From Maribacter luteus (GTDB lineage Bacteria; Bacteroidota; Bacteroidia; Flavobacteriales; Flavobacteriaceae), in contig NZ_WKJH01000024.1 in the NCBI RefSeq assembly GCF_009674825.1, forward strand, positions 186,001 through 250,000: DNA of 64,000 nucleotides, in the 5' to 3' direction. The notes under the pieces are model-generated. The model saw nothing but the letters and a program-made list of their open reading frames with translations, had not been told where the DNA came from and made no database searches. The translations under genes were made by a program, and so were the position numbers. Below are positions 22,725 through 40,456 of the stretch, piece after piece (within the stretch, counting starts at the first letter, position 1; each line of letters begins with the position of its first letter).

Positions 22725-22730
22725 AAAGAT

Positions 22731-22765
22731 AAAGAGGGTGTGCCTTGGACAGGAACGCCCTCTTT
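22731..22765 (+). terminator. Terminator after ssb
   Basis: AAAGAGGG (22731-22738) pairs with CCCTCTTT (22758-22765) across a partly paired loop, 7 bases after the ssb stop. Confidence 0.7.
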
Positions 22766-22796
22766 CATCATTAATTAATCCTAAAAAGACGTAATA

Positions 22797-23177
22797 ATGA
22801 AAGCACAAGTTAACGAAATACTAGAGGGATTGCAACATTTTCACGGTTCTGAAATGTTCTATCAAATCCCATTGATACAAACCCGGTTTACAAACGGATT
22901 GAATTATTTGGCCCAGGTGGCGGAATGCTTTTGGTTGATTACGGATACTTCCGTAATCGCCAAAAGTTTAATGAACAAAAGCCATTTCATCACGATAGAT
23001 TTTAAAAGGCTATCGAAAGAAAAACAGGATTCAACAGGTTATGAAGCCGAAATGATTTACAGCGATGGAAACGGTAATATATTGGAAACGCATCGATACC
23101 ACCTTACCGATTTCCCTTTGGATGAACTGCGTTTATTTTTTGTAAATGATACGCTCATGCTACCGAGTGAATATTAA
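22797..23177 (+). CDS. Conserved mobile-element protein, DUF6876-like
   Basis: Protein of 126 residues without signal peptide or membrane segment. It shows FHGSEMFYQIPLIQTRFTNG, LAQVAECFWLITDTSVIAKS and a C-terminal YHLTDFPLDELRLFFVNDTL. This layout resembles a small family common in Bacteroidetes mobile elements that I recall as DUF6876; function unknown. It lies between ssb and the mobilisation genes and is followed by its own terminator at 23251-23276. Confidence 0.7.
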   Translation: MKAQVNEILEGLQHFHGSEMFYQIPLIQTRFTNGLNYLAQVAECFWLITDTSVIAKSLMNKSHFITIDFKRLSKEKQDSTGYEAEMIYSDGNGNILETHRYHLTDFPLDELRLFFVNDTLMLPSEY

Positions 23178-23250
23178 AGTGGAAGACTTATGAAATCCAT
23201 ACAATTATAACTATGTTTTCCTTATCCAAATAACAAAACACACCAAACGG

Positions 23251-23276
23251 GCCCTTTTATTATGAAGGGCTTTTTT
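23251..23276 (+). terminator. Rho-independent terminator
   Basis: GCCCTT, 8-base loop, AAGGGC, then TTTTTT, downstream of the DUF6876-like gene. Confidence 0.75.
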
Positions 23277-23427
23277 GATGCCCAATCCCCTAATTTCCAT
23301 ATCTTTATAGCCTTAGAAAAGCATTGATTTTCTAGTGGCCATCACCTTGATTTTAATTTGACTTTCCTTGATGGCCAAATTCGAGAAATATGATATGGGC
23401 AACCCACGATAGTGAGGTTGTTCGGAA

Positions 23428-23490
23428 ATTTTTGGTCCCCTTGGGACGAAAAATGGAGAAGCAAGAGGGTAACACGCTGCGCGCTGTTAC
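23428..23490. other. Candidate origin of transfer: two inverted repeats
   Basis: Repeat 1 (23428-23454) pairs ATTTTTxGTCCC with GGGACxAAAAAT around a CTT centre, with one mismatch. Repeat 2 (23469-23490) pairs GTAACA with TGTTAC around a GC-rich loop. Both are upstream of the BfmA-like and relaxase genes. The call rests on structure and position only; no nick site is known. Confidence 0.4.
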
Positions 23491-23617
23491 ATGGGTTTAT
23501 ACATGCATAATATTCTGATATACAGCACTTTAAATTTATTTACAAAAGCGATGGCCTGGGGCTTTTACAGCAAATGATGCCAGAACGCCCGTAAACAGTT
23601 GAAATTTTACAGTAAAA

Positions 23618-24157
23618 ATGAAGGATCCGTATCAAAAATATCGTTTTTCGGCCATTAATATCAAAAAGGATGTTGCCATGCGCTTTCGGAACTTTTCCCG
23701 ATTGGTATCGGATTCGCATACCCATACCTTGGAGAGGGTCATGGATTTTTTTGAATGGAATGACCTCTCTCCAAACGATGACCTGGGCATCAACAACAAC
23801 AGGACCAACAAGCGGATCAATGCCGTTATCGCCATCCTTAAAAATATTGAAAAGCACCAGACCCTACCGACAAAGGCGATGTTGGATACCCTCTTCCAAG
23901 TAATTTCCAACATGGAAAATACGGAGGAAAAGGAGGAAGATTTTGATTTTGGATCGCCCGAACCGCTTTCCCGGGACAACGAACTGGACCACTACCGAAA
24001 CCGCTATGAAGAAATGCAACAACAACTTGGCAATTATAAAAAACGGATGCTGCATCTCCTAGAGCAAATGACCTTCGTGAAGGGAACCTTTGGCAAAGGG
24101 CATTATAAACTGGATATGGACAAAAACGAATTTGAAGAATTAAAAAAAGGACTTTAA
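23618..24157 (+). CDS. BfmA/BtgA-like mobilisation accessory protein
   Basis: Protein of 179 residues: FSAINIKKDVAMRFRNFSRL, SHTHTLERVMDFFEWNDLSP and a C-terminal coiled-coil-like region (about 125-165, YRNRYEEMQQQLGNYKKRML). This matches the small BfmA/BtgA proteins that accompany relaxases in Bacteroidetes mobilisable and conjugative elements, where they help relaxosome assembly at oriT. Its stop is one base before the relaxase start, indicating coupled translation. Confidence 0.85.
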   Translation: MKDPYQKYRFSAINIKKDVAMRFRNFSRLVSDSHTHTLERVMDFFEWNDLSPNDDLGINNNRTNKRINAVIAILKNIEKHQTLPTKAMLDTLFQVISNMENTEEKEEDFDFGSPEPLSRDNELDHYRNRYEEMQQQLGNYKKRMLHLLEQMTFVKGTFGKGHYKLDMDKNEFEELKKGL

Positions 24158-24158
24158 C

Positions 24159-25193
24159 ATGTACATCACCATTACCGCACAAAAGGTCAAAGGTAATTAT
24201 GCCCAAAGCGCCAGTGCCTTTGTGGACTATCTCGAAAAGGAAAACGAGGGGAAACCCATAAACGAACTGGAGCATTTCTTTGACCAAGACAGGGAAGAAA
24301 TATCAGCGATGGAGGTCATCAATAAAATAGATGGGAACACGGCCAAACTCAAAAAGGTGGAGCCCAAGTTCTATTCCATCACCCTGAACCCAAGTAGGCG
24401 CGAACTTCAGGCCATAGGGAATTCCCCTAAAACCCTTAAATGCTATACCCGCGAAGTAATGAAAGCGTATGCGAAGGCATTTAACAGGGAAATCAATGGT
24501 AGACCCGTGACCGTAGACGATATTCAATACTATGCCAAAGTGGAACACCAACGCACTTATAAAGGAAACGATGCACAAATTATCGAAAACCAACCCTATG
24601 CCACAAAAATCCTAATCCTGAAACAAGAAATCCGTCGTATCGAAAATGGGGAACTTATAGGGAATATCAAAAAACTGCAAAGGGATATGGTGCGCCTGGA
24701 AAGGGAAGCCCCCCACCAACTGAACGGCAAGCGCATCGTCAGGGGAATACCCAAGCCGGGTCCACAGAGCCATATCCATATCATTGTCAGCCGCAAGGAT
24801 GTCTCTACCCGGTACAGCCTCTCTCCCGGAAGCAAGTACAAGGCCTCCGATGTTGAGATGAACGGTAAGACCGTGAAACGGGGCTTTGACAGGGACACCT
24901 TTTATAAAAATGCGGAGAAGACCTTTGATGGGCTATTCGGTTATAACCGAAACTACGTAGAGACCTATACGGCAAGGAAGACCTTTCTAAAGAATCCGAA
25001 GCTTTATTTTTCCATAATCACGAAACTGCCGACCAATGAAAAGGCCTTGGCGTTTAAACTCCTGGAAAAAGCTGGGGTCAGTACCGCCTTGTTGCACATT
25101 CCGACCAGTAAACTCCAGTTGACCCTCAAAGCGATCAATCTATTGAAAAAAGGGATTGGCAAGGCCATCGAATCAGGCTCCATTGGTATATGA
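24159..25193 (+). CDS. MobB-like relaxase (DUF5712-type)
   Basis: Protein of 344 residues. The N-terminus has YITITAQKVKGNYAQSASAF and VDYLEKENEGK; the middle has a long charged helix (ILKQEIRRIENGELIGNIKK), and GIPKPGPQSHIHIIVSRKDV supplies the His-rich H-x-H motif expected of a relaxase metal site. Family members nick oriT and lead the strand into the recipient. It overlaps the coupling-protein gene by 4 bases (ATGA). The catalytic Tyr is not pinpointed. Confidence 0.85.
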   Translation: MYITITAQKVKGNYAQSASAFVDYLEKENEGKPINELEHFFDQDREEISAMEVINKIDGNTAKLKKVEPKFYSITLNPSRRELQAIGNSPKTLKCYTREVMKAYAKAFNREINGRPVTVDDIQYYAKVEHQRTYKGNDAQIIENQPYATKILILKQEIRRIENGELIGNIKKLQRDMVRLEREAPHQLNGKRIVRGIPKPGPQSHIHIIVSRKDVSTRYSLSPGSKYKASDVEMNGKTVKRGFDRDTFYKNAEKTFDGLFGYNRNYVETYTARKTFLKNPKLYFSIITKLPTNEKALAFKLLEKAGVSTALLHIPTSKLQLTLKAINLLKKGIGKAIESGSIGI

Positions 25194-26623
25194 GCTGGCA
25201 GGCCGAACATATCATCTTTTATATCGTTCTACCACTGTTATTCGTGGGTACGGTACTCTATGCCCTTCTGTTCGGGGAAGTGCATGAACGGACGGATAAA
25301 AAATATAAGGTACGATTCAAGTTAAGGTTCGGCAGCTTCACCACGGATAATATCCGCAGGGGAACTTCGGTCATCGGTTCAGCGGGAAGTGGCAAGACGG
25401 AAAGCGTCGTCTATAATTTTTTGCAACATTTCAGTGCAAACGGCTTCTGTGGGGTAATCCATGATTATAAGGACTTTGATCTGACCGAGATCGCCTATCC
25501 CTTGTTCAGGGACAACAACATACCTTTTTATACCGTTGCCTTTGACGATATCCATTACCGGGTCAATCCCATCGCCCCTAAATATCTGCCCAATGAGGAA
25601 AGTATCAATGAGCTCTCCAGGGTACTGATGGAAAACTTGTTGGAACAGGACCTTACCCAGAACCAAGGGAGCAATAAATTTTTCTCCGATGCCGTAGAGG
25701 GACTTTTAAGCGGGATGGTATGGAAAATGAAAACCGCCTATCCGGAGTATTGCACCCTCCCCCATATCATCGCCCTCTTCCATTCGGCAAGTACCAAAAA
25801 ACTGGTGGCCTTACTTAAATCGGACCTGACCTCCCGAAGTATGGCCAGTGCCTTTATCCATGGTATCGAATCCGAAAAGCAGACCGCAGGAATTAAAAGT
25901 ACCCTCTCCAACGCCTTTAAAAAAATAAGTTCCAAAAAAGTGTTCTACGTGCTTTCCAGGGATGAGTTATCCTTGGACATCAACAACCCGGACCATCCGG
26001 CCGTGGTATCGCTGGTCAACAATCCTAAATACGATGCGGCCTACTCCCCTATCATTGCCATGGTCATGCATACCCTAGTCAAACAGATGAGTGTCCGTGG
26101 TATGAAACCTTCCTTTCTCTTGATGGAAGAGGCACCGACCATCAAACTACCCAATATGCACCGGATTCCCGCTACCTTGAGGAGTTTCGATATTTGTACC
26201 GTCTATGTCATGCAGGATAAGGTGCAGAACGATCTGCTATATGGGGACATGGCAAGCAAGGCCATTTTAAGCAACCTGTCCTATCAGTTCTTTGGTAAGG
26301 TCAATGACCCCGATACCGCCAAATATTACGAACGTTTTTTTGAAATCATTAAAAAGCCCACACGTAGTATCAGTAAGAACAGTGGACTTAGCTTTGAAAG
26401 CCGTATTACCAAAGGGGAAAAGGAGGTTTCCAAACGTAGGGCGGATATTTTTTTTCGATTGAAACAGGGTGAGTTCATCGCCTTTGCAGATGGTAAGGAT
26501 AAAAAAGTACAATTCAAATTACAACCTATTCGAAGAGAAATGCCTGATAAAAGAAAGCAGTGCTCCAACATGGATATCCAATTGAACTTTGAACGGATTC
26601 ACAGGGAGGCCAAAACCATTTAA
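25190..26623 (+). CDS. Type IV coupling protein (VirD4/TraG-like, mobilisation module)
   Basis: Protein of 477 residues. One N-terminal transmembrane segment (about 7-27, IIFYIVLPLLFVGTVLYALL) is followed by the ATPase with Walker A GSAGSGKTES and Walker B SFLLMEEAPTIKL, then NMHRIPATLRSFDI and VYVMQDKVQND. It links the relaxosome to the conjugation channel. It is shorter than many coupling proteins, with a single N-terminal membrane segment. The channel genes are about 22 kb away on the same element. Confidence 0.9.
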   Translation: MSWQAEHIIFYIVLPLLFVGTVLYALLFGEVHERTDKKYKVRFKLRFGSFTTDNIRRGTSVIGSAGSGKTESVVYNFLQHFSANGFCGVIHDYKDFDLTEIAYPLFRDNNIPFYTVAFDDIHYRVNPIAPKYLPNEESINELSRVLMENLLEQDLTQNQGSNKFFSDAVEGLLSGMVWKMKTAYPEYCTLPHIIALFHSASTKKLVALLKSDLTSRSMASAFIHGIESEKQTAGIKSTLSNAFKKISSKKVFYVLSRDELSLDINNPDHPAVVSLVNNPKYDAAYSPIIAMVMHTLVKQMSVRGMKPSFLLMEEAPTIKLPNMHRIPATLRSFDICTVYVMQDKVQNDLLYGDMASKAILSNLSYQFFGKVNDPDTAKYYERFFEIIKKPTRSISKNSGLSFESRITKGEKEVSKRRADIFFRLKQGEFIAFADGKDKKVQFKLQPIRREMPDKRKQCSNMDIQLNFERIHREAKTI

Positions 26624-27685: not shown

Positions 27686-30600
27686 ATGATGAATAAAAAA
27701 AAACGATTAACGAACGGCCTGAGTTTACTTCTTACCGTGTATGCTTTGCTCTCCCCCCTATTTAGCCTTAAACTCGAGGCCAAGTATACCACCTCCATAA
27801 AAAGTATTACGAATCAAAACCACCTACAGACCACTATTACGGGATTAATTACCGATACCCATGGACAACCCATCGGGGGGGTGACCATACTCGTGGAACA
27901 ATCGGACAAAGGGACCATATCAAAAATGGACGGTACATACAACATTCGTGCAGCAGGCAATGGCCAACTTATCTTTTCCGCAATAGGTTTTAAGACCCTA
28001 ACGATTCCAATCAATGGTAGAAAAAAAATCGACGTAACCCTTCAGGAGGACATCACCCAGTTGGACGAGGTTGTCCTTAATGCGGGGTATTACACCGTCA
28101 CAGAGAAAGAACGCACTGGTAGTATCTCTACGATCAAGGCGATAACCATGGAACAACAGCCAGTGGGCAATCCTCTGGCCGCCATGCAAGGGCATTTGTC
28201 GGGTGTGAACATCATCCAATCGTCAGGGGTACCAGGGGGTGGTTTTAATGTAGAAATACGCGGTCGGAATTTTATCGATGGAGCTTCCGACCCCTTTTAC
28301 CTTGTTGATGGTGTACCGTACAACGCCCAGTCCCTCGGTTCATCGAATGTTTCCGGTCAAATCCTTGGGGGAAACATCAGTCCCTTAAATGCCCTCAACC
28401 TAAATGATATTGAAAGCATCGAGGTATTAAAGGATGCCGATGCCACCGCAATTTACGGTTCCAGGGCGGCCAATGGTGTGGTGCTCATTACCACTAAAAA
28501 GGGAAAAACGGGAAAAACACGGTTCAATGCCCATTTAAGTACTTCCCTGGGGAGGGTATCCAATTTCTTGGAGCTTATGAACACGGAACAGTATCTGGAA
28601 GTACGAAGGGAAGGAATTACGAACGATGGTTTTGGTCCGTTTTTGGAAGATCCAGCATTCGATTTTATTTGGCCGGATATTAAATCTTGGGACAACGACC
28701 GTTATACGGATTGGCAAAAAAAGCTTATCGGAGGCACCGCCTATAGAAACAGTGCCCAACTCTCCGTCTCCGGAGGGTCGTCGGATACGCAGTTTCTGGT
28801 CAGTGGGGCCTACAACAAGGAGACCACCGTATTCCTTGGGGATGCCAATTATAAAAAAGCGACCCTTCACAGCAACCTGAACCACAAATCCAGTAATCAT
28901 CGGTTCAAGTTCAATCTTTCTACCAGCTACACCAATGAGAAAAATAGGATGCCTAGGACCGACTTTACCAGTAAGGCCTACACATTGGAGCCCAATGGCC
29001 CTGAACTTTATGATGCTGAAGGTAATATCAATTGGGAAAACAATACCTGGGACAATCCTTTGGCCTCCTTAGAAGAAACATTCGAGGTGACCACAAATAC
29101 CCTCATCGCCAATGCATTGGTGTCTTATGAAATCATACCCAACTTAGAGTTCAAATCCAGTCTGGGTTTTAACAGCTATCGACTGGATTCCTATAGGACC
29201 TTACCAAGTTCGGCAAGAAATCCCAATCTGGGTTTAACACCCCAAAATTATGCCTCGTTGACCACCAATGGTTCCAAAAGGAACTCATGGATCGTGGAAC
29301 CACAGTTGCATTGGAGGAAACAATGGCAAGAGCTCAAGTTGGATTTCCTGGTCGGAACGACGTTCCAAGAGGAAAACACCGAACAGTTCATTCAAAAGGG
29401 AACAGGTTTTCCCAATGACGAACTCCTGCGGAACCTGACGGCCGCCAACACCTTGGAAGTGCTTCAGTATGCTGATAGCGAATACAAGTACAATGCCTTA
29501 TTCGGTCGCTTGAACCTGAAATTTCGGGATAGATATATCGTGAATTTCACAGGCCGCAGGGACGGGTCCTCCCGATTCGGACCCGGAAAACAGTTCGGGA
29601 ATTTTGGTGCGGTAGGCATGGCATGGCTGTTTTCGGAAGAAAATAGCCTTCAAGGAAACCCCCTATTAAGCTATGGAAAGCTACGGGGTAGTTTTGGTAC
29701 CACCGGTAGTGATAACATTGGGGACTATAAGTTTCTGGACACCTATAACGTCAGTGGATTCGACTATAATGGGATCGTCCTTTTGGAGCCAACGGGCATA
29801 TTCAATCCCCTATTTGGCTGGGAGGCGAACAAAAAACTGGAGGCGGCCCTGGAACTCGGTTTTTTTAAAGACCGGATCTTGATCAACAGCTCCTGGTACC
29901 GAAACCGTTCATCGAACCAACTTATCGGAATTCCATTGGCCGCAACGACCGGCTTTTCCGAACTGACTGGAAATTTTGATGCCACCGTGGAAAACTCAGG
30001 ATTCGAGGTGGATATCCGAACTGTAAATTTTAAAAAAAAGAATTTTACTTGGTCGACCACATTCAATTTGACGATACCCAAAAATAAACTGGTGGCCTTT
30101 GAAGGCTTGGAAACGTCCACGTTCGCCAACCACCTGATCATAGGGGAACCCTTGACCATCGTAAAATTGTACAATGCCTTGGGCGTGAATCCGGAAACAG
30201 GTAGCTATCAATTCGAGGATTATAACGGGGATGGGACTATCGGCAGTTTGGAGGACAAGCAATGGGTGGAAGACTTCGGGCCCAAGTTTTATGGGGGTCT
30301 GGGTAATACCATCACCTTTAACCATGTGACCTTAGACTTTTTCCTTCAGTTTAAAAATCAAAAGGCATTCAATGAAATTGCTTTTGGAGCCACCCCGGGA
30401 TATAGGGGTAATTCAAGCACGGCCCTTTTGGATAGATGGCAACAGCCCGGGGACATGAATCCCATCCAAAGGGCTTCCGGTGGTCTGGCATTCGGAGAGG
30501 ATACCGGTGCCCTTCAGAAAAGCAGCAATGCGGCCGTCTCCGATGCCTCCTTTATTCGATTGCGGAATATTTCGATCAATTATAAAGTACCCGATTTAGG

Positions 30601-30745
30601 GAATGGGCTGGACCTGAACGTATATGTGCAAGGGCAAAACCTCTTGACCCTAACCAACTACAAGGGGCCAGATCCCGAACAACCTTCCAATACCCGATTA
30701 CCACAGTTGAGACAGATTACCCTCGGACTTCAATTAGGCTTTTAA
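27686..30745 (+). CDS. SusC/RagA-family TonB-dependent receptor (element cargo)
   Basis: Protein of 1019 residues with a signal sequence, a carboxypeptidase-like domain (GLITDTHGQPIGGVTILVEQ), LDEVVLNAGYYTVTEKERTG, plug motifs (PFYLVDGVPYNAQS, IEVLKDADATAIYGSRAANG) and a barrel ending QITLGLQLGF. There is no STN domain, so it is not a FecR-type signalling receptor, unlike the two others here. It is followed at 16 bases by susD and then a metalloprotease gene, which points to peptide rather than glycan uptake. That substrate is inferred from neighbours. Confidence 0.95.
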   Translation: MMNKKKRLTNGLSLLLTVYALLSPLFSLKLEAKYTTSIKSITNQNHLQTTITGLITDTHGQPIGGVTILVEQSDKGTISKMDGTYNIRAAGNGQLIFSAIGFKTLTIPINGRKKIDVTLQEDITQLDEVVLNAGYYTVTEKERTGSISTIKAITMEQQPVGNPLAAMQGHLSGVNIIQSSGVPGGGFNVEIRGRNFIDGASDPFYLVDGVPYNAQSLGSSNVSGQILGGNISPLNALNLNDIESIEVLKDADATAIYGSRAANGVVLITTKKGKTGKTRFNAHLSTSLGRVSNFLELMNTEQYLEVRREGITNDGFGPFLEDPAFDFIWPDIKSWDNDRYTDWQKKLIGGTAYRNSAQLSVSGGSSDTQFLVSGAYNKETTVFLGDANYKKATLHSNLNHKSSNHRFKFNLSTSYTNEKNRMPRTDFTSKAYTLEPNGPELYDAEGNINWENNTWDNPLASLEETFEVTTNTLIANALVSYEIIPNLEFKSSLGFNSYRLDSYRTLPSSARNPNLGLTPQNYASLTTNGSKRNSWIVEPQLHWRKQWQELKLDFLVGTTFQEENTEQFIQKGTGFPNDELLRNLTAANTLEVLQYADSEYKYNALFGRLNLKFRDRYIVNFTGRRDGSSRFGPGKQFGNFGAVGMAWLFSEENSLQGNPLLSYGKLRGSFGTTGSDNIGDYKFLDTYNVSGFDYNGIVLLEPTGIFNPLFGWEANKKLEAALELGFFKDRILINSSWYRNRSSNQLIGIPLAATTGFSELTGNFDATVENSGFEVDIRTVNFKKKNFTWSTTFNLTIPKNKLVAFEGLETSTFANHLIIGEPLTIVKLYNALGVNPETGSYQFEDYNGDGTIGSLEDKQWVEDFGPKFYGGLGNTITFNHVTLDFFLQFKNQKAFNEIAFGATPGYRGNSSTALLDRWQQPGDMNPIQRASGGLAFGEDTGALQKSSNAAVSDASFIRLRNISINYKVPDLGNGLDLNVYVQGQNLLTLTNYKGPDPEQPSNTRLPQLRQITLGLQLGF

Positions 30746-30761
30746 CCATAATCATGATACT

Positions 30762-32195
30762 ATGCAATACAGAAAAAAAATAACAATCAGTAGAAACCTC
30801 GATACGAAACACTTATTCAAGCAGACAGTTAGGATGCCTCGAATTACCCTGCTCCTACTAGCACTGGGACTTTTCAGTTGCTCGGACTTTGTCGAAGTGG
30901 GACCCCCAGAAAATATTTTGGTTTCCGAAACGGTCTTCAATGATGCGGCGACAGTGGAGTCCGCCTTGGCTAATATCTATTATAAGATGCGGGAACAGGG
31001 CATGGTTTCCGGTAATTTCGGTCTGACCACGGGGTTGGGCATCTACAGCGACGAATTGGATTATTATGGGTTCGATACCGGATATTCACAATTGAACCTT
31101 CATAACGTTTTGCCTGGCAATGACGTTATCACGGGTTGGTGGAGCCAAGGCTATTACCTCATATACAGCGCCAATGATGTAATCAAGGGTGTCGAGAATT
31201 CAAATAAGCTGACCGCAATGGAACAAGATCAATTCAAGGGACAGGCGTTATTTGTTAGATGTTATATGCACAGCCTCCTGGTGGCCCTATACGGAGATAT
31301 CCCTTACATCACCACTACGGACTATTTGGACAACAACATTGTGGTCCGCAACACCGAGACAACGGTAATGGATAACATCCTATCCGACCTCACTTTGGCC
31401 GTGGACCTCTTGGAGGGTGTCGATGTTTCTTCGAATGAACGGGCGCTACCGGATCAATGGGCCGCCAAGGCCTTGTTGGCGCGGATGAACCTATATGCAG
31501 AAAACTGGGAACGGGCAGCATCGATCGCAACGGAACTCATCGACAATTTTATGTTGGAAACGGACCTGGAGAATGTTTTCCTAAAGGAATCCCCCGAAAC
31601 GATATGGCAGCTCAAAGACGGCGAGAACCCAAAGAATACGCAAGTGGCCAACCAACTGGTCATCCGATTCATTCCCGGTCAGACCTACAGTTTGACCGAT
31701 GACTTATTTTCGGCCTTTGAAACAGGTGATCTGCGAAAGACGCATTGGACCGATAGCCTATCCGATACAGACAACACCATTACCCTACGGTTTGCCCATA
31801 AATACAAGGCCACCTTGATCGAAACGGAATCCTTGGAATATTCCATTGTGTTTCGATTGGCGGAACAACACCTGATCCGCGCGGAAGCAAGGGCACGATC
31901 GGGGGATAATCCGGGAGCACTAGAGGACCTCAATTCCATCAGAAATAGGGCGGGGTTACCCGATACCATTGTAGGTACGACAGGTGACCTGTTGGACGCC
32001 ATTTTACAAGAACGGCGTGTCGAACTTTTTACCGAGCAAGGATTACGTTGGTTCGACCTTAAAAGGACGGGGACGGCTGAAGAAGCCCTAGGGGACTTGA
32101 AGACGAACTGGAAACCGACCGATATACTGCTTCCCATTCCTGAAACGGAACTGGAAATCAATCCGAATCTTTTACCACAAAACCCCGGGTATTAA
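30762..32195 (+). CDS. SusD/RagB-family lipoprotein (element cargo)
   Basis: 477 residues from the first ATG; an internal ATG at 30834 gives MPRITLLLLALGLFSC, a cleaner lipoprotein signal with the lipobox Cys, and may be the true start. SusD features: VSETVFNDAATVESALANIY, LVALYGDIPYITTTDYL, RLAEQHLIRAEARARSGDNP and the C-terminal LLPIPETELEINPNLLPQNP. It is shorter than the glycan SusD at 10817-12550 and resembles RagB-type partners of peptide-importing RagA. Confidence 0.94.
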   Translation: MQYRKKITISRNLDTKHLFKQTVRMPRITLLLLALGLFSCSDFVEVGPPENILVSETVFNDAATVESALANIYYKMREQGMVSGNFGLTTGLGIYSDELDYYGFDTGYSQLNLHNVLPGNDVITGWWSQGYYLIYSANDVIKGVENSNKLTAMEQDQFKGQALFVRCYMHSLLVALYGDIPYITTTDYLDNNIVVRNTETTVMDNILSDLTLAVDLLEGVDVSSNERALPDQWAAKALLARMNLYAENWERAASIATELIDNFMLETDLENVFLKESPETIWQLKDGENPKNTQVANQLVIRFIPGQTYSLTDDLFSAFETGDLRKTHWTDSLSDTDNTITLRFAHKYKATLIETESLEYSIVFRLAEQHLIRAEARARSGDNPGALEDLNSIRNRAGLPDTIVGTTGDLLDAILQERRVELFTEQGLRWFDLKRTGTAEEALGDLKTNWKPTDILLPIPETELEINPNLLPQNPGY

Positions 32196-32271
32196 AAATA
32201 CCCGATATCATGCATCATATACTTTACGCTATGGCCTAAAAAAGGTCAACACCCTTTAAATATGCAACACC

Positions 32272-34587
32272 ATGAAAAAAAATATAATCATTCAATTTTT
32301 GTTCCTATTGATCTTTTGGTATCCATCCCATTCCAGAACAAGGACTATAGACAACTTAGCCGATGCAAAGCCCATTAAAAGCATTTTTTTAAGCTCTTTT
32401 ATAGAGGGAGACCAACTCTATTTGAATATTCCTGAACCTATATTGGACAAGCCAATGCTGTTCGTTCGATACGAAGAAAATTACAGACGCAAATACATGC
32501 AGGTGGTCTGGTCAAGGCATCAGGATAAAATAGTACTCAAGCCCCAAAGCATAAAATCCACGGCAGGAATCATCATTCCCTTTAAACGAAAAGTTCCTCT
32601 AATGGAAAATATCCTCGCCATATTCCCAGTAGTAAACAAAAAAGGTGACCCGGATAGCTATTGTATCAACATCACTGATCTTGTATTGCATCTTGATATA
32701 GAATGGCCTCAATTCCCTGGAGGATTTTCTGGAAATACGATTCCCCAGATTTCCATGCTACTTGGAGCCAAGGATCTTGACGATCAGGTATTGATCAAAA
32801 CCAGTCATGGTATCCTAAAAGATGGATCAAAGGTCTCCTTCCCTATTTTCTTAAGTTTCTGCGCATTGGGGGAACCGATGAAAGCCAGACGCCATGATTA
32901 CCGAATGGGGTATTATAACGAGGAAGTTTTCGGTATTGGTTACGGAATCGATACCGAAGGTACCCAAAACGATATTGCCAATATTAGTCGATGGCGCCTT
33001 GAAAAGAAATATAAGAACCAAAAAATAAGTGTCCCGGTCAAACCCATCACTTTTTTGTTAGCTCCCGAAATTCCAAAAGTATGGAGACCTTATATCATAG
33101 CAGGAATCAGGGAGTGGCTCCCGGCTTTCGAGGCCGCAGGATTTAAAGATGCCATTGTGGTCAAGGAAACCGATCGTTTAAGTGAATGGGACAGGCATAA
33201 CATCCATAACAACATTGTATACTGGTCACCCAAAAAATATTTTAGGGGTAACGAAAAAGAGGATGATGCAGGTAAGGCTTCCTTTATCAAGGATTACAGA
33301 ACCGGGGAAATCCTGAGGAGCGATATTATCTTAGGTGCCGCCCGTCATACTTTCGAGAACTTCTACTTTACCAGAGCCGCACCATTGGATAAAAGAGCAC
33401 AAAAACTGCCGTTTCCCGACAGCCTATTAGGAGAGCTGTTCCAACAACTGACCGCACACGAAACGGGACATGCCCTAGGGATAATGGACAATAACTATGG
33501 GGAGGCCCAGTATCCCGTAAAGAAGATGAACGATATCGACTGGCTGAAAACTATGGGATTTACCCCAAGTGTCATGAACTCTACCAGGGCCAACAACATT
33601 CCCCAACCCGAGGATAGTATACCTCCTGACTTCCTAATATCAAAAGTGGGACCAACGGATGTTTACACGATTCAATGGGGCTACTCGGAATTTGCCGAAG
33701 GAATGGACGAGAAAGCCGCTTTGGAGCGCATCGTCAGACTTCAGGATTCCATTCCATGGTATCGCTACAATACCAGTCCTCTCGAAGTGGTCGGTCCTGC
33801 TAACACCAATGAAGTTGTGGAAACCAATGACCCGGTTAGAAGTACCCAATTGGCAATGAAAAATTTAAAAAGGACCATTGCACTATTACCCCAAGCATGC
33901 TCCAACACAAAGGACAATGTGAGACTGGAAGTCCTCTACAAAAAATGTATGGAATTATGGTATTTACAGATGCGCCAAGTAGTTTCCTTGATTGGTGGTT
34001 ATGACATCCAGTACAAATCCTTGGATCAACCTGGAAAAATATACACCCCATTGGCTCTAAAATCTCAGGAAGAGGCCCTTGCCTATATCCTGACCAATGC
34101 TTTCGACCCCCCAGAATGGTTAACGAATCCCGCTTTCAGCACCAGAATCAACTATAGTAGCCATCCAGATTATATAGTATCGTACCAGCAAAAATTACTG
34201 TACGAACTCTTAAGGCCCCAAAGGCTGAAGCGTTTCGAATATTTAGAAACCATAGTTGGTTATCAGAAAACCCTGAGCAACTATCTGACAGCATTGCAAT
34301 CAGGGATATTTATTGAAATACAGAAAGATCTGGTGCCTATTGGACGCAGAAAGCAGGAAATTCAAATGACCTATTTGGATAAGATGAAGGCTATACTGGA
34401 ACAAGAACGAATAAACGTTGATCCTGACAGGAAAGCCATGGACTATACCGATTATTCCAAGGGACTACTGCTACAACAATTGGTTTCCTTAAGGAAGGAT
34501 ATCGAAAATCACATAAAAAAAAGTGATAATGCCCTTTCCTCCGGTCATTGGAAATTAAGCTTGAAAAAAATAAAGGACATGTTGTAA
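32272..34587 (+). CDS. Secreted zinc-dependent metalloprotease (DUF5117/DUF4953-type)
   Basis: Protein of 771 residues with a signal peptide (about 1-21). The zinc site is AHETGHALGIMDN, with His396, Glu397 and His400 of HExxH. Upstream are LLAPEIPKVWRPYIIAGIRE and WLPAFEAAGF, downstream VMNSTRANNIPQPED and VGPTDVYTIQWGYSEFAEG, all typical of the large Bacteroidetes zinc-protease family annotated DUF5117/DUF4953. It would act in the periplasm or at the surface. It lies 76 bases downstream of susD in the same direction and probably generates or degrades peptides that the SusC/SusD pair handles. Confidence 0.9.
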   Translation: MKKNIIIQFLFLLIFWYPSHSRTRTIDNLADAKPIKSIFLSSFIEGDQLYLNIPEPILDKPMLFVRYEENYRRKYMQVVWSRHQDKIVLKPQSIKSTAGIIIPFKRKVPLMENILAIFPVVNKKGDPDSYCINITDLVLHLDIEWPQFPGGFSGNTIPQISMLLGAKDLDDQVLIKTSHGILKDGSKVSFPIFLSFCALGEPMKARRHDYRMGYYNEEVFGIGYGIDTEGTQNDIANISRWRLEKKYKNQKISVPVKPITFLLAPEIPKVWRPYIIAGIREWLPAFEAAGFKDAIVVKETDRLSEWDRHNIHNNIVYWSPKKYFRGNEKEDDAGKASFIKDYRTGEILRSDIILGAARHTFENFYFTRAAPLDKRAQKLPFPDSLLGELFQQLTAHETGHALGIMDNNYGEAQYPVKKMNDIDWLKTMGFTPSVMNSTRANNIPQPEDSIPPDFLISKVGPTDVYTIQWGYSEFAEGMDEKAALERIVRLQDSIPWYRYNTSPLEVVGPANTNEVVETNDPVRSTQLAMKNLKRTIALLPQACSNTKDNVRLEVLYKKCMELWYLQMRQVVSLIGGYDIQYKSLDQPGKIYTPLALKSQEEALAYILTNAFDPPEWLTNPAFSTRINYSSHPDYIVSYQQKLLYELLRPQRLKRFEYLETIVGYQKTLSNYLTALQSGIFIEIQKDLVPIGRRKQEIQMTYLDKMKAILEQERINVDPDRKAMDYTDYSKGLLLQQLVSLRKDIENHIKKSDNALSSGHWKLSLKKIKDML

Positions 34588-34686
34588 CTAAAATGCCAGG
34601 TCTTCCCCTGGACTATGAAAAGTATCCATGGATTCAGAAACAAAATATTTTCTGACATGGTAGTTTGTTATTTTGAATTAGTTAAA

Positions 34687-34712
34687 AAAGGTGCCTTATA
34701 CAAGGCACCTTT
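34687..34712. terminator. Bidirectional terminator
   Basis: Perfect 11-bp arms AAAGGTGCCTT/AAGGCACCTTT around a 4-base loop, followed on the plus strand by a T-rich tract. It separates the convergent metalloprotease and DUF6520 genes. Confidence 0.85.
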
Positions 34713-34739
34713 CTTTTGACATCTGTGTCAAACCAAGGC

Positions 34740-34982
34740 TCAGTCTTTACGTAATTCATTGTTCAACGCGGGTTCCGCATACAATTGATGACCGTTGAAC
34801 TTACAGGCAATTGCATTACCTGTTCCACATTCATTCTCAACCATAGTGGACTGCACCCCAAGGATGGGATGGTCGTAATAGGCAATTCGACTTTCTGTTT
34901 CGGCTTCCGATGCAAAGGCAAAGCCAAGGGCCATAACGATGGCCAATGCAGGTAATACGAACTTAAAAAATTTAGTTTTCAT
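34740..34982 (-). CDS. Small secreted protein, DUF6520 family
   Basis: Protein of 80 residues. MKTKFFKFVLPALAIVMALG with FAFASEAE is a Sec signal peptide (cleavage near residue 25). The mature part of about 55 residues has just two cysteines, Cys52 and Cys60 (ECGTGNAIAC), able to form one small disulfide loop. DUF6520 is a Flavobacteriaceae family of unknown function. The gene lies 78 bases upstream of the element's terminator and directly downstream of a MauE-like gene with its own CxC. A peptide precursor is my inference. Confidence 0.85.
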   Translation of the reverse strand: MKTKFFKFVLPALAIVMALGFAFASEAETESRIAYYDHPILGVQSTMVENECGTGNAIACKFNGHQLYAEPALNNELRKD

Positions 34983-35060
34983 ACGATTATATTTAAAAAT
35001 TAATGCCTACTCTTTTTTACAGGTTTTCGGCTTATCCTGTCCCTACGTAGTATTTTTTTT

Positions 35061-35492
35061 TTATTCTGATGCCATGTTTTTGGAATAAAAGATTCCAAGT
35101 GCTGCAAGTGCCAGTAAGGCAATATTGAATAGGATGTGATCCGTCCATCCCAAAGCGGGAATGACTCCGACACAGGAACAGGGTACAACATCGCTAAAAT
35201 TCAAGATCAATAGGATATAGGTGGTAAAGAGGACTATCAAACCGAAACTGGCAAAAAGGGCCTGAAGCCTGAATGATTTAAAAAAAAGTAAGACCGAGAC
35301 CACAAGTTCGGCTACCGGAACCATCCAGGCCACGATATCCGTGTAACCCCTTAATATAGAAGCTTGGGCCAATTGTAAACTGAATTCCCGATAATTCAAA
35401 AGCTTGGTCGTAGCTGCAAATAAAAACAGGGTAGCCAATACCATGCTGATACTATAAGCAATGGTTTGCTTGATCTTCTCTATGTGAATCAT
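35061..35492 (-). CDS. MauE/DoxX-like integral membrane protein
   Basis: Protein of 143 residues with four predicted helices (about 12-30, 52-72, 77-98, 115-135). After helix 3 there is VPCSCVGVIPALGW, with Cys105 and Cys107 spaced like a redox pair. MauE-type proteins help disulfide formation in periplasmic partners, and DoxX-type relatives are quinone linked. Its neighbour on the same strand is the two-cysteine DUF6520 protein, a plausible substrate. Function here is inferred. Confidence 0.85.
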   Translation of the reverse strand: MIHIEKIKQTIAYSISMVLATLFLFAATTKLLNYREFSLQLAQASILRGYTDIVAWMVPVAELVVSVLLFFKSFRLQALFASFGLIVLFTTYILLILNFSDVVPCSCVGVIPALGWTDHILFNIALLALAALGIFYSKNMASE

Positions 35493-35586
35493 ATCGTTTA
35501 TATTGATATGATAAAAATAGCGGGTCCTATTTACTCGTAAGGGAGCGTTTAATATCCGTTGGGTAGTAATTGGAATATTTTACAGA

Positions 35587-36564
35587 TCAAGGATCTTTTC
35601 TTGATATTTTCCGCAATTCACTTGGGGCATAACCATACGTTTTCTTGTAGACCCTTGAAAAATGGGGAATGCTCTTGAACCCCGTTTTATAGGCAATCGT
35701 CTTTATGGTGAAGTCAGTATACTGAATCAACATTTTGGCTTTTCGCAGTCGCTCCTGTAACAAAAACCGATAGACACTGGTTCCAAAAAGCTCCTTAAAA
35801 CCATACTTGAGCTTGAATTCATTGGTCCCTAATTGAAGTGCAAAATCGCGTAGCGAGGGCAGATCTTTCTCTAGATTGTTGAGGATAAGATTTCTTCCCT
35901 CCCTGATTTTTCGAATATCCTCAAAACTCAATTTGGGACGGTTCTTTGTGGTCTTCAGATCATTGCCTGAACCTGTGGTCTTCTTCTCTTTGTAGGATAT
36001 GATATCTTGCCTTTGAAGCTCGTCCCTTTCTTTCCGGTCCTTGGAAAAAAGTACGACAGTGACCCAAATCCCATTGTCCTGGGTGTGCTGGCCTTCACAG
36101 GAACCAATGTGACAGGTATGCGGCAGCAATAGGCCTTCCTTCGAAACAAACGTAAGTTCCATTGAAGTTTCATAAAAACCTTTCTTACCTATTTTTTTGA
36201 GATATTTGGTCCATCTTTTTTTGGACTTTGTATTGAGCAATGCATCAAAACGTTTCTTGAGCAAATCTTCATGCAGGTAGGACAAGGTCAAACACGTGCT
36301 TTTATTCACCCCTTTAATGATGCCTTGCATATCCAACAGAAAATTCAATTGAATCAAATGCTTAACGATACCATTCAAATTTGCATATCCTTGGTGTATC
36401 AGGATTTCTTGGATTTCTTCGGCCAACATATTCAAAACAAGGATAATGGACTCCAAGTTGTCATGGTTGCCAGTACGCTCCAATCTATAGAAAAAATTGC
36501 CGCTGGCCATTTCCATCAACATCTTGTTGATCTTGTTCAGGTCCATTTTTCGCAATTTATCCAT
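35587..36564 (-). CDS. PAS-domain AraC-family transcriptional regulator
   Basis: Protein of 325 residues. The middle (about 75-185) looks like a PAS sensor (NFLLDMQGIIKGVNKSTCLT, LNTKSKKRWTKYLKKIGKKG). The C-terminal AraC domain (about 225-320) has both helix-turn-helices: SLRDFALQLGTNEFKLKYGF and TIKTIAYKTGFKSIPHFSRV with YKKTYGYAPSELR. Likely the local activator of the DUF6520/MauE genes or the susC block. A PAS domain suggests a small ligand or redox cue, unproven. Confidence 0.9.
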   Translation of the reverse strand: MDKLRKMDLNKINKMLMEMASGNFFYRLERTGNHDNLESIILVLNMLAEEIQEILIHQGYANLNGIVKHLIQLNFLLDMQGIIKGVNKSTCLTLSYLHEDLLKKRFDALLNTKSKKRWTKYLKKIGKKGFYETSMELTFVSKEGLLLPHTCHIGSCEGQHTQDNGIWVTVVLFSKDRKERDELQRQDIISYKEKKTTGSGNDLKTTKNRPKLSFEDIRKIREGRNLILNNLEKDLPSLRDFALQLGTNEFKLKYGFKELFGTSVYRFLLQERLRKAKMLIQYTDFTIKTIAYKTGFKSIPHFSRVYKKTYGYAPSELRKISRKDP

Positions 36565-36622
36565 GATCGGTTTTCTGTTTTCAATGAAATGTTCACCTTC
36601 CTAAACCCCTTAGTTTACCTTG

Positions 36623-36994
36623 TCATTTTGTAAGAAGAAATAGCTTGGCAGCTTCAATATCAGAAAAGACCCTTGAAGGTATGGGTGGATTACTGATTCG
36701 TAAATAAAACGCTGATAGCGCTTTTGAAATCGTAGGTTCAATAACATACGCTACAACGGTTACCAGGATAGACCCTTCAATGGCCAAATAGTCCCTAGCT
36801 GGTTTATCCATTTCATAGATACCCCTTACATCACATAGGACTTTATAGGCCAAGCCTTCCTGTAACCTAAGGCGATCTTCAACAATACGAATTGCGGCTT
36901 GTAAATCGATAGAAACCTCCGACTTATATACGATATACAAGATACTATCTTGAATATGGTATGTTGCATATTCATTTTCTTTAAAAAAAGACAT
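36623..36994 (-). CDS. STAS-like small protein (DUF7793-type)
   Basis: Protein of 123 residues, no signal peptide. YHIQDSILYIVYKSEVSIDL, VLCDVRGIYEMDKPARDYLA and IEGSILVTVVAYVIEPTISK form an alternating beta/alpha pattern typical of STAS/SpoIIAA-like folds; similar small proteins in Flavobacteriaceae are, as I recall, DUF7793. It lies 58 bases upstream of the AraC gene in the same direction, so it may feed the regulator. Partner-switching function is speculative. Confidence 0.7.
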   Translation of the reverse strand: MSFFKENEYATYHIQDSILYIVYKSEVSIDLQAAIRIVEDRLRLQEGLAYKVLCDVRGIYEMDKPARDYLAIEGSILVTVVAYVIEPTISKALSAFYLRISNPPIPSRVFSDIEAAKLFLLTK

Positions 36995-37198: not shown

Positions 37199-39601
37199 AT
37201 GGCAAAGATCAAACATCATAATTTCTTGAATACGGTTCACGAGGTATTTACGGATGCCAAACAAGAAGGCGTCCTGCATTTGTATGCGGAAGGCAATTCC
37301 TTTTCCGGAAGGAAGATAAAGGTCAAGAATCGAAATCTATTCCATTTTGGGACTACGGGATATCTAGGTCTTGAACAGGATCAACGGCTCAAAAAAGCCG
37401 CTATTCGGGCCATCGAAAATTATGGCACACAGTTTCCGTTATCAAAATCCTACATCTCAAATCCCTTATATAAAGAACTTGAAGAGCTTATAACGCAAAT
37501 GTATCAAGCACCGATCATCATCACCAAAAACAGCACCCTTGGTCACATCGGGGTAATACCAAGTGCCGTCGATGATGATGATGTCATCATTTTGGACCAT
37601 CAAGTACATTGGAGCGTACAGAATGCTGCCAAGATGTTAAAGACACGTAGTGTTCCTATCGAAATGATTCGGCATAACAACCTGGAAATGCTTGAGGATA
37701 AACTGAAAAAATACACCCACTCCAAAAAGCACATATGGTACATGGCCGATGGGATTTATTCCATGTACGGGGACTTCGCCCCGGTAAACAATTTAATGGA
37801 ACTGGGCAAACAATATCCACAATTACGATTCTACTTCGATGATGTCCATGGCATGAGTTGGGTCGGAAAAAATGGAACGGGCTATGTGTTGAGCCAACTA
37901 GGCGAGTTGCCGTCCAATGTACTTCTTTTTGGAACCTTGAGCAAAACGTTTGGGGCTAGCGGTGCCCTATTGGCATGTTCCGATATAGAACTATACAAAA
38001 AGATCAAGACCTTTGGTGGGCCCTTGACGTTTTCGGCCCAATTGGAACCGGCATCTGTAGCTGCTGCAATCGCATCGGCCAAAATCCATTTGTCCAAGGA
38101 TATATACGGCCTGCAAGATGAGCTGAAGGAGCGAATCGATTGTTTCAACGAATTTCTGGCAAAGACCGATCTACCACTGATAGACCATAATGAATCCCCT
38201 GTATTCTACATTGGAACAGGAATGCCAAAAACGGGATACAATTTTGTCAACCGTTTGATGAAGGAAGGATTCTATGTGAACCTAGGGATTTTCCCAGCTG
38301 TGCCTGTAAAGAATACGGGTGTCCGAATAACCATATCCAGACATAATCAAAAGGAAGAAATCAAAGCATTGGTAGCTGCAATGGAGTATCATTATCCTAA
38401 AGCACTAGCTGAAACCAGAACGACTCCGGAACGTGTTTTCCACGCTTTTAATCTTCAACCAAAAGTCCTAAGTGAAAAGGTTTTGAACGTTGACCTTCAA
38501 ATTGAAATAAAGGAAACTATTGGGGCAGTCGATAAAAAGCTATGGAATAACCTAATGAAGGGTCAAGGGGTCTACGACTGGGATGGATTAAATTTTCTAG
38601 AAAATGTATTCCAAGATAATAATAGAAAGGAATACAATTGGGCCTTTCGCTATGTGTTCATCAAAGATGAAAATGAAAAAATCATCTTGGCAACCTTCTT
38701 GACCCATGCCCTGTGGAAAGATGATATGTTGGCCAAAGAAAAGGTTTCACTGGCAATAGAAGTGGAACGGAATGAAGACCCGTATCATTTGACTTCCATG
38801 GTAGTCTCGATGGGTTCCTTATTTACAGAAGGAGACCACCTTTATTGGGATGGGAAACATCCCAAGGCCAAAGGCGCTATGAATACATTGATCCGCCTAC
38901 TGGAAGACCTACAGCTAGATCTTGACGCAAAGATGATAGTGCTCCGTGATTTTGAAAGGGAAACTCCCTGGCATCGAAATCTTCAGGGGAATGGCTTTAT
39001 ACGGGTTCAAATGCCCGATACCTGTATGGTGGACTTGAAGGGTGTCGTAAATCTCCAAGACTTCCTTTCCAAATTATCCAGTCGAAACCGAAAGCATTAT
39101 CGCAAGGACATTAGACCCTATCTGGAAAAGGTTAATGTAAAGTTAGTAAAGAAGGCTACATCCTCAGAAATAGTACAAATCAAAAAATTATACGGCAACG
39201 TGCACGATAATAACCAAGGACTAAATACATTTTCTTTTCCTGAAAAACTCTTTGATCATATGAACCAACATTCTCTTTGGGAGTTCATTATGGTACGTCC
39301 TTCTGAACAACTTGAAACCTTAATTGGAGTAATGCTTTGTTATAAGAATTCAGGACAAGTCTACGTCCCTGCATTTATTGGAATGGACTACGCCTATCGA
39401 AATGATTTCAGTACCTACAGACTATTGTTATTAATGACCATTGAACGGGCCATTGCGTTAGGGTTCTCAAAAATAGACATGGGGATGACCGCATCTTTCG
39501 AGAAAAAGAAATTGGGGGCCCAGGTAATCAAAAAATATGCTTACCTGCAGACCGCTGACAATTATACCCTGGAACTACTTGGAATAATGGAAGGTCAGTG
39601 A
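37199..39601 (+). CDS. Alpha-oxoamine synthase fused to a GNAT-type acyltransferase
   Basis: Protein of 800 residues. Residues about 40-400 are a fold-type-I PLP enzyme of the alpha-oxoamine synthase group: FGTTGYLGLEQD, SYISNPLYKELEELI, DGIYSMYGDFAPV, FYFDDVHGMSW (Asp214, His217) and LFGTLSKTFGASGAL with the PLP Lys249. The C-terminal half (about 430-800) resembles a GNAT/FemAB-like acyltransferase (SKLSSRNRKHYRKDIRPYLE, FIGMDYAYRNDFSTYRLLLL). Oxoamine synthases condense an amino acid with an acyl-CoA, as in sphingoid bases and CAI-1. The product here is unknown. RteC follows at 15 bases. Confidence 0.85.
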   Translation: MAKIKHHNFLNTVHEVFTDAKQEGVLHLYAEGNSFSGRKIKVKNRNLFHFGTTGYLGLEQDQRLKKAAIRAIENYGTQFPLSKSYISNPLYKELEELITQMYQAPIIITKNSTLGHIGVIPSAVDDDDVIILDHQVHWSVQNAAKMLKTRSVPIEMIRHNNLEMLEDKLKKYTHSKKHIWYMADGIYSMYGDFAPVNNLMELGKQYPQLRFYFDDVHGMSWVGKNGTGYVLSQLGELPSNVLLFGTLSKTFGASGALLACSDIELYKKIKTFGGPLTFSAQLEPASVAAAIASAKIHLSKDIYGLQDELKERIDCFNEFLAKTDLPLIDHNESPVFYIGTGMPKTGYNFVNRLMKEGFYVNLGIFPAVPVKNTGVRITISRHNQKEEIKALVAAMEYHYPKALAETRTTPERVFHAFNLQPKVLSEKVLNVDLQIEIKETIGAVDKKLWNNLMKGQGVYDWDGLNFLENVFQDNNRKEYNWAFRYVFIKDENEKIILATFLTHALWKDDMLAKEKVSLAIEVERNEDPYHLTSMVVSMGSLFTEGDHLYWDGKHPKAKGAMNTLIRLLEDLQLDLDAKMIVLRDFERETPWHRNLQGNGFIRVQMPDTCMVDLKGVVNLQDFLSKLSSRNRKHYRKDIRPYLEKVNVKLVKKATSSEIVQIKKLYGNVHDNNQGLNTFSFPEKLFDHMNQHSLWEFIMVRPSEQLETLIGVMLCYKNSGQVYVPAFIGMDYAYRNDFSTYRLLLLMTIERAIALGFSKIDMGMTASFEKKKLGAQVIKKYAYLQTADNYTLELLGIMEGQ

Positions 39602-39616
39602 GAAATCCAACATCAC

Positions 39617-40456
39617 ATGAAATACCAAAAATTGCTAACCGAATTCGAGGCCCAACTGGATAAGTTGGAAAATGGCCAAGGGGATATTCTATTTAAGGCT
39701 GAAAAAGGCATTGTATTGGTAGAAAAATACATTAGGAAACTACATATTGAGTTTGAGAAAAAATCCTTCACCACACAAGGGGATGAGATCCATTTCTTCA
39801 AACATGTAAAGCCCCAAATTTTTAGCAAACTTATTTATTACGGAAAGCTTTTTACCATTGAAAGCAAAAGACCAAGAGGCAATAACACCTCCCAAATCAA
39901 GTATTTGAGGTATCAAATAGATAAGCTACAGACATTTTTTAATGATAACCTGGAATTCTATAATTACTATAGACGCGGTGCCATGTCAATGGACGAGCAT
40001 TATTTTGTTCGAGGCAACCGCGACCTAAGACTTCCTTCGGATTCCTTTCATTTTTTTATCGATGACCATTTCTCAACATGTCAAGATGGTACGGTCGCGA
40101 CCATTATGGCTTACGATATGCTTATCGTATACCTACAGCGGGAAGTGGATCATTTGGACAAAATCATTGAAATACCTGTAAATACGCCGATGCAAAAACC
40201 TTCAAAACTTTTTTGGACCGGGAGCAAGACCGATTTAATTGAATTGCTTTATGCGCTCCATGCCAGTAATTCCATCAATAGTGGAACTGCGGACATCAAG
40301 GAACTGGCCTCCCATTTCGAACATTTCTACAATGTTGATCTGGGAAATTATTACCACACCTTTATTGAAATAAGGTCAAGAAAAATGAGTAGGACAAAGT
40401 TCATGGACAAACTAACTGAAATGTTGAACCAACGCATGGAATCTTTGGATGAATAA
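39617..40456 (+). CDS. rteC: RteC-family regulator of element excision
   Basis: Protein of 279 residues. ISKPRG-like region IESKRPRGNNTSQIKYLRYQ, IDKLQTFFNDNLEFYNYYRR, DEHYFVRGNRDLRL and the C-terminal winged-helix-like TDLIELLYALHASNSINSGT, FYNVDLGNYYHTFIEIRSRK match RteC. In CTnDOT, RteC activates the excision operon. RteA/RteB are not present in the window, so control must differ. It is probably co-transcribed with the oxoamine synthase-acyltransferase gene (15-base gap). The next gene downstream is excisionase-like, which fits. Confidence 0.9.
   Translation: MKYQKLLTEFEAQLDKLENGQGDILFKAEKGIVLVEKYIRKLHIEFEKKSFTTQGDEIHFFKHVKPQIFSKLIYYGKLFTIESKRPRGNNTSQIKYLRYQIDKLQTFFNDNLEFYNYYRRGAMSMDEHYFVRGNRDLRLPSDSFHFFIDDHFSTCQDGTVATIMAYDMLIVYLQREVDHLDKIIEIPVNTPMQKPSKLFWTGSKTDLIELLYALHASNSINSGTADIKELASHFEHFYNVDLGNYYHTFIEIRSRKMSRTKFMDKLTEMLNQRMESLDE

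Follow-up and report, generated by a model that had tools for sequence, protein, structure and literature searches.

What part do an outer-membrane transporter, a very small cysteine-containing protein and a redox membrane protein play when they travel together on an integrative conjugative element (ICE)? The question is raised by a block of genes at positions 27,686 to 36,994 of a 64,000-nucleotide stretch of the Maribacter luteus genome (contig NZ_WKJH01000024.1, positions 186,001 to 250,000), the whole of which is referred to here as the window. On one strand the block encodes a SusC transporter, a SusD lipoprotein and a metalloprotease, and on the other the small protein DUF6520, a MauE-type membrane protein, an AraC-family regulator and a DUF7793 protein. 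An initial annotation had proposed that DUF6520 is the precursor of a small disulfide peptide (bacteriocin, signal or cofactor carrier) that is oxidised with the help of MauE, cut by the protease and taken up or sensed through SusC and SusD (SusCD). Comparative analysis establishes that DUF6520, MauE and SusCD form a recurrent unit, that the cysteines of DUF6520 are inherited in pairs and that the unit is linked to ICEs; the block is best explained as a copy of a module that is widespread in CTnDOT-like ICEs and has a constant core of SusC, SusD, DUF6520 and MauE.

A recurrent gene unit

Matches to DUF6520 were found in 9 of 60 relatives and in 63 of 395 genomes of the order Flavobacteriales. 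The surroundings of 50 DUF6520 genes (40 of the 89 places from the order and 10 of the 12 from the relatives), with 20 more stretches started from MauE, make up a set of 69 loci in which MauE is present in 68, SusD in 66, and SusC and DUF6520 in 64 each. Among the matches listed, a MauE gene lies on the same strand within 2.5 kb of 68 of the 73 DUF6520 matches above cut-off, and two of the five matches without a nearby MauE are partial ones within open frames of about 700 amino acids. Viewed from the other side, a DUF6520 match is listed beside 77 of the 98 strongest MauE matches (at least 93 bits; hereafter the strong MauE genes). Twenty of the remaining 21 loci were examined, and all have a small secreted-looking cysteine protein beside MauE, which a purpose-built profile identifies as DUF6520 in 15 and which is another two-cysteine protein in five.

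Genome contigs were also scanned with a MauE alignment, and the best 79 of 588 confirmed relatives, those most like MauE of the window, were kept. DUF6520 adjoins MauE in 77 of these 79, and SusC and SusD are each present in 73; of the two loci without DUF6520, one ends just past MauE and the other, on a 7.4-kb contig, has 3.5 kb of sequence beyond MauE. The closest named relative among the 79 is from Maribacter polysiphoniae (98 percent). This named set overlaps the order-wide genome set by at least four contigs, and the two are not fully independent. The arrangement recurs across the Flavobacteriales, twice in a single Pedobacter genome and once in Dyadobacter, and it is therefore found far more often than chance would produce. 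As a control, 20 of 50 listed lower-scoring MauE genes without a DUF6520 match were put through the same searches, which found no DUF6520, SusC or SusD at 19 of them; the twentieth is a relative of the module with a second small-protein family. The initial annotation had made its proposal depend on co-occurrence, which is clearly not rare (77 and 73 of 79): DUF6520, MauE and SusCD are a real unit. A scan of viral contigs with MauE gave no relatives, and a protein search of a plasmid collection gave no match.

For counts by locus, 129 nonredundant loci were retained from 147, four being duplicates and 14 lacking DUF6520 by the rule applied (second small-protein family in five, DUF6520 before MauE in six, overlapping frames in one, DUF6520 absent in two). 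Several variants of the arrangement were seen. At five loci (L185, L195, L204, L216 and L234; four Flavivirga and one uncultured Flavobacteriaceae) DUF6520 precedes MauE rather than following it, and no enzyme lies between the SusD and MauE-propeller genes. At five others (L130, at 9496-9828, L137, L142, L144 and L148) a second family of small, secreted-looking two-cysteine proteins (GC...RPC) takes the place of DUF6520 beside MauE, with SusC or SusD at all five and a thioredoxin-like protein at four. A second DUF6520-like gene adjoins the first at L068 (9459-9746) and L071 (9308-9583).

The window copy conforms to this pattern (Table 1). Open frames and family matches bear out the STN-less SusC, the RagB-like SusD and the HETGH metalloprotease on one strand, as well as the tiny protein with cysteines eight residues apart and the MauE-like protein with a CxC motif. 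The SusC and SusD genes are tandem open frames with 16 bp between them, and SusD is likely to start at an internal methionine preceding ...LALGLFSC, a lipobox read off the translation; the N-terminus of the metalloprotease suggests that it too is exported. The regulator that had been called PAS-AraC keeps its AraC part, and its PAS part is represented only by a match of 19.8 bits, under the cut-off of 27, while the protein first described as STAS-like belongs to DUF7793. The unit also reaches past position 36,994 and includes a BioF-FemAB fusion enzyme, whose product may be a small acylated molecule, and the regulator RteC.

DUF6520 and its partners

Across 54 aligned DUF6520 sequences the only invariant residues are two inner cysteines, numbered 51 and 59 in the alignment (in a row without the start methionine) and corresponding to Cys52 and Cys60 of the window protein. 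The 54 rows were taken from 68, omitting near-copies, sequences with long N-terminal extensions, and those of L054 and L138, whose two cysteines are spaced differently. A further, outer pair is complete in 42 rows and wholly absent from 12, and no row has one member only. A plain count over the last 65 residues, with one DUF6520 per locus, finds two cysteines in 20, four in 108 and six in one of the nonredundant loci, an even number in 129 of 129; by a count within alignment columns instead, 8 of 129 rows are irregular, and a second DUF6520 copy outside this set (L018, 12997-13290) has five. The number changes at least seven times on a tree of SusD. Even counts, and an outer pair kept or lost jointly, are the pattern expected of two disulfides, which in the four-cysteine proteins would join C1 to C4 and C2 to C3; the window protein would be expected to hold the single disulfide Cys52-Cys60. 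Conservation of the cysteines, on which the earlier proposal also depended, is thus borne out, and together with their pair-wise inheritance it fits a disulfide protein helped by MauE.

AlphaFold predicts DUF6520 as a small beta domain (mean confidence 78, with blocks of 81-92 from residue 31, and a predicted template-modelling score of 0.55), a small folded protein by prediction rather than a short peptide. The signal part is more conserved in pairwise comparison (38 percent) than the mature part (22 percent). Summed ratios of nonsynonymous to synonymous change (pN/pS), from 22 pairs of which several are saturated at synonymous sites and some lack a gene, are 0.31 for both mature and signal parts of DUF6520, 0.28 for MauE, 0.23 for SusD, 0.19 for SusC and 0.23 for RteC. 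Such values point to purifying selection on both parts of DUF6520; diversifying selection was looked for in the codon changes of these 22 pairs and not found. Purifying selection speaks against a bacteriocin-like arms race, and with it against the bacteriocin among the roles first suggested. An antibacterial role for DUF6520, as a peptide that the element secretes, might be suggested by its small size, secreted look, paired cysteines and mobility. Such a role is very improbable in view of this selection and of the signal-peptide-like start of DUF6520, which is not a double-glycine leader. In addition, neither a C39/ABC-type exporter nor a modification enzyme, either of which would mark a cluster for a bacteriocin or a ribosomally synthesised and post-translationally modified peptide, was found among the ten genes scanned, in which an immunity gene would not be recognisable.

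The partner of DUF6520, MauE, has a PC(S/T)C motif with both cysteines invariant in 35 proteins; judged by hydropathy and knowledge of the family, this motif faces the periplasm. A long form of MauE, of about 500 amino acids, is present at 85 of 124 loci. In a model of one such protein (mean pLDDT, the predicted local distance difference test, 87.5) the helices of MauE are joined by another long helix and by an all-beta part, which lies behind a fifth transmembrane segment and whose matches in the PDB are propellers, including the DUF4221 structure 3s9j. The MauE family, its small disulfide partner, the fused propeller and the thioredoxin-like protein of some loci could be taken for a redox or cofactor complex, in which DUF6520 and the propeller form an enzyme-like periplasmic pair matured by MauE and SusCD brings the substrate. 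Such a complex seems improbable: the window block has no propeller gene, and since only the two inner cysteines of DUF6520 are invariant there is no conserved tryptophan pair or other cofactor site.

The third gene of the SusCD strand is the variable one. With families assigned by Pfam on representatives, S9 peptidases take this slot in 89 of the 129 nonredundant loci, Met-zincins in 21, thioredoxin-like proteins in 12 and M16 peptidases in four, and nothing was recognised there in three; across the 124 loci of the SusD tree its occupant changes at least nine times. Because the slot is swappable, and is empty at five further loci, the proposed cleavage of DUF6520 by the metalloprotease of the window would not be general. 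Unrelated peptidases in one slot suggest a system that handles peptides or proteins. RagAB takes up peptides (PMC11817032). A tentative alternative is that the block is nutrient cargo of the RagAB kind, in which SusCD and an exported peptidase import and degrade environmental peptides while DUF6520 and MauE are accessories of the transporter or envelope rather than a ligand and its maturation factor. SusCD with an exported peptidase is what a locus for peptide uptake looks like, the slot is filled by peptidases of three unrelated families, and DUF6520 is under purifying selection, all in accord with nutrient cargo; what this explanation leaves unaccounted for is the near-universal retention of the small disulfide protein and MauE, the loci without a peptidase, and the tie to RteC and TraM described below.

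The conjugative element and its regulators

The block is carried by a CTnDOT-like ICE, as follows from the ssb, BfmA, MobB and coupling-protein genes on its left and the TraG/VirB4, TraM and recombinase genes on its right (Table 1). The element thus has RteC, a MobB relaxase, a coupling protein, TraG/VirB4, TraM and a tyrosine integrase, although the integrase and TraK matches are under their NCBIfam cut-offs; the SusC side of the block faces the coupling protein and its other side RteC. In a sample of the genus, DUF6520 is present in 3 of 12 genomes, the source genome included, and this patchiness fits a mobile unit. The suggestion that the block is element-borne is supported by these flanking genes and by the association of the module with TraM and RteC across the order.

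Table 1. Features of the block and of the surrounding element, in window coordinates
Feature	Position	Strand	Matches and remarks
ICE mobilisation segment: ssb, BfmA, MobB relaxase, coupling protein	22389..26623	+	family matches
SusC/RagA TonB-dependent outer-membrane transporter	27686..30745	+	TIGR04056 678 bits; Plug; CarbopepD_reg_2; no STN domain reported
SusD/RagB-like surface lipoprotein	30762..32195	+	SusD_RagB 93.6 bits; SusD-like_3
Met-zincin metalloprotease (DUF4953/DUF5117)	32272..34587	+	PF16313 238 bits; HETGH in translation; swappable third-gene slot
DUF6520 small secreted-looking protein	34740..34982	-	PF20130 53.3 bits (cut-off 25.4); 80 aa; Cys52, Cys60
MauE redox membrane protein, stand-alone form without beta-propeller	35061..35492	-	PF07291 100 bits; C105-S-C107
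AraC-family regulator, weak PAS-like N-terminus	35587..36564	-	HTH_18 72 bits, above cut-off
DUF7793	36623..36994	-	PF25056 133 bits; strand common to AraC, MauE and DUF6520
BioF-like pyridoxal phosphate enzyme fused to FemAB/GNAT-like domain	37199..39601	+	Aminotran_1_2, Acetyltransf_6; divergent from DUF7793 gene
RteC, regulator of ICE excision/transfer	39617..40456	+	PF09357 279 bits; 15 bp downstream of BioF
ICE transfer genes: TraG/VirB4 ATPase, TraK-like, TraM, neighbours	48834..54312	+	TraK 75 bits, under cut-off 152
Tyrosine integrase, probably of the element	57612..58874	-	XerC/XerD-type recombinase matches, under their cut-offs

Other genes of the window lie outside the module. Within the ICE a 1193-amino-acid nSTAND3 protein adjoins an ApeA (HEPN) protein (42478-47321), likely phage-defence cargo, and a HipA-like kinase gene (55594-56850) stands between the transfer genes and the integrase. 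At 12562-17710 a 1165-amino-acid minus-strand open frame adjoins a FecR-like gene (16134-17060, under cut-off) in what looks like a second transporter locus, of the sigma/anti-sigma type, apart from the block.

Beyond the window, 58 of the 98 strong MauE genes have a TraM gene no more than 100 kb away, against 6.7 expected, and 58 of 108 TraM genes have the module within that distance. By genome, the module is present in 52 of 78 with TraM and in 14 of 317 others. Of the CTnDOT-like elements sampled across the order, about half carry it. An RteC gene stands no more than 6 kb from 52 of the strong MauE genes, and in 51 of these cases the two are on opposite strands; the expectation is about 0.8 even for a distance of 12 kb. 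Conversely, 52 of 123 RteC genes have the module within 6 kb. Three regulator sets were defined: AraC with DUF7793, AraC fused to TPR repeats (TPR-AraC) and TPR-kinase. RteC is held by 35 of the 69 loci, and in 28 of them BioF or TPR-AraC is directly upstream of it on the same strand, with a gap of at most 121 bp in 27; in the window, as in 11 of the 69 related loci, it is the BioF-FemAB form that precedes RteC. Among 20 control loci, drawn from 71 RteC loci without the module, neither BioF nor TPR-AraC was found directly upstream of RteC. All 15 TPR-AraC and TPR-kinase proteins checked (TPR identity being established by Pfam on one of each) have an internal transmembrane segment between the TPR and output parts, and seven have an N-terminal hydrophobic segment above threshold, from which the TPR part is likely periplasmic.

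These observations allow a proposal for how the module may work. DUF6520 would be exported by its signal peptide and fold to a small beta domain, some 50-55 residues long, in which one or two disulfides would form with help from the periplasmic CSC dithiol of MauE, often tethered to a propeller; MauE-aided disulfide formation is suggested by the gene pairing, the covariation of the cysteines and the topology. Mature DUF6520 would then work with its own SusCD, most probably as a ligand captured by SusD and carried by SusC, and the exported enzyme of the third slot, peptidase or thioredoxin-like, would break down or reduce the incoming material. The module would be wired to the element through BioF or TPR-AraC, placed directly before RteC in about 40 percent of loci. 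To this reading as a whole, in which an exported DUF6520, oxidised with the aid of MauE, works together with its own SusCD or by way of it in a module wired to the element, we give about even credence.

Several findings weigh against it. A fixed role in regulation is hard to reconcile with a regulator set that changes at least 30 times on the SusD tree, with at least 21 changes in the presence of RteC, and with the 43 of 124 loci at which no defined regulator set was found within 9 kb, in some cases because the sequence runs out. Twenty of the strong MauE genes, some of them near contig ends, lack both a TraM gene within 100 kb and an RteC gene within 30 kb, and at the five loci (of Flavivirga and an uncultured Flavobacteriaceae) where DUF6520 precedes MauE the third slot is empty. 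The one hint that DUF6520 acts through SusCD is weak: over 61 loci the divergence of mature DUF6520 has partial correlations of 0.20 with SusD and 0.18 with MauE (each reached in 0 of 500 permutations), but 0.02 with SusC and 0.08 with RteC (35 of 500 permutations), values that are small and, for SusD, in effect no larger than for MauE. In a comparison meant to tell whether mature DUF6520 follows MauE or SusD, 104 pairs of loci with similar MauE and different SusD have a value for mature DUF6520 of 0.28, only slightly above the background of 0.21; the comparison is lopsided, as the converse class holds one pair. No fold match emerged from the PDB, where Foldseek gave nothing below E 3 for DUF6520 and a profile search of the sequences gave a single hit at E 0.7.

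A bolder extension is that the module serves self-recognition in conjugation among Flavobacteriales ICEs, each element reading its own MauE-folded DUF6520 through its own SusCD, with a link to RteC, such that excision and transfer depend on whether neighbours carry the element. We regard this as doubtful. An explicit circuit, in which DUF6520 made by carriers enters neighbours via cognate SusCD, is trimmed, and is sensed by a periplasmic TPR protein or another regulator that sets RteC, excision and transfer, is slightly less probable again. It would account for the proximity and opposite orientation of RteC, for BioF or TPR-AraC in front of RteC at 28 of 35 RteC-bearing loci against none of 20 module-free ones, and for the membrane segment and likely periplasmic TPR part of the candidate sensors. 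Set against this circuit are the 46 of 98 strong MauE genes without RteC within 12 kb, the 43 of 124 loci without a defined regulator set, the lack of any sign of diversifying selection on DUF6520, and the regulator of the window itself, in which hydropathy finds no transmembrane segment. Were the module indeed to control transfer, it would represent a new way for Gram-negative elements to sense each other.

Relation to known systems

We rate the module as a variant of SusCD-type systems that is apparently undescribed. Full-text literature searches for DUF6520, for MauE with SusD or TonB and for RteC with SusD returned no description of it in the text available. The accessible parts of two papers mention RteC, and one of them a TonB-dependent receptor as ICE cargo (PMC6491836), without mention of the module there or in the other (PMC5458099). 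With these results DUF6520, a domain of unknown function, gains a definite partner set, and the role of SusCD pairs on mobile elements becomes a question for simple gene-removal tests.

NVEALA proteins resemble DUF6520 as small, secreted-looking cysteine proteins beside a six-bladed propeller. Two such loci of one genome (L149 and L150, genome G637) have NVEALA genes adjoining the propeller proteins TolB_like, DUF5128 and DUF4221, and NVEALA was found in 3 of 296 genomes of the phylum at E 0.001, one match being over the family cut-off. The likeness is limited to the propeller pairing: DUF6520 belongs to a different Pfam family, neither the window protein (at E 0.001) nor genome G000 gave a match to NVEALA (PF14055), and ten proteins scanned around NVEALA genes gave no MauE or SusCD match. 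The MauE of methylamine clusters is of the same Pfam family, PF07291, as that of the module, and serves, together with MauD, the small multi-disulfide subunit of methylamine dehydrogenase; here, in contrast, the neighbour is DUF6520 and MauE is often fused to a propeller. No methylamine dehydrogenase or other mau structural gene was found among the ten genes scanned, to which the search was confined.

The peptide importer RagAB and related SusCD importers share with the module an STN-less SusC barrel, a SusD lid and an adjoining peptidase. To our knowledge RagAB has no dedicated small disulfide protein or MauE, whereas here DUF6520 and MauE are the most constant partners. Nor do we know of a SusCD-DUF6520-MauE unit in CTnDOT. 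In that element, according to PMC1976400, RteB activates rteC, and RteC controls the excision and transfer genes. The regulatory region of CTnDOT (tetQ-rteA-rteB, rteC) is like the one described here in having other genes next to RteC in an ICE of the TraM/TraG type, and differs in that RteA and RteB are replaced here by AraC with DUF7793 and BioF, by TPR-AraC, or by a TPR-kinase pair.

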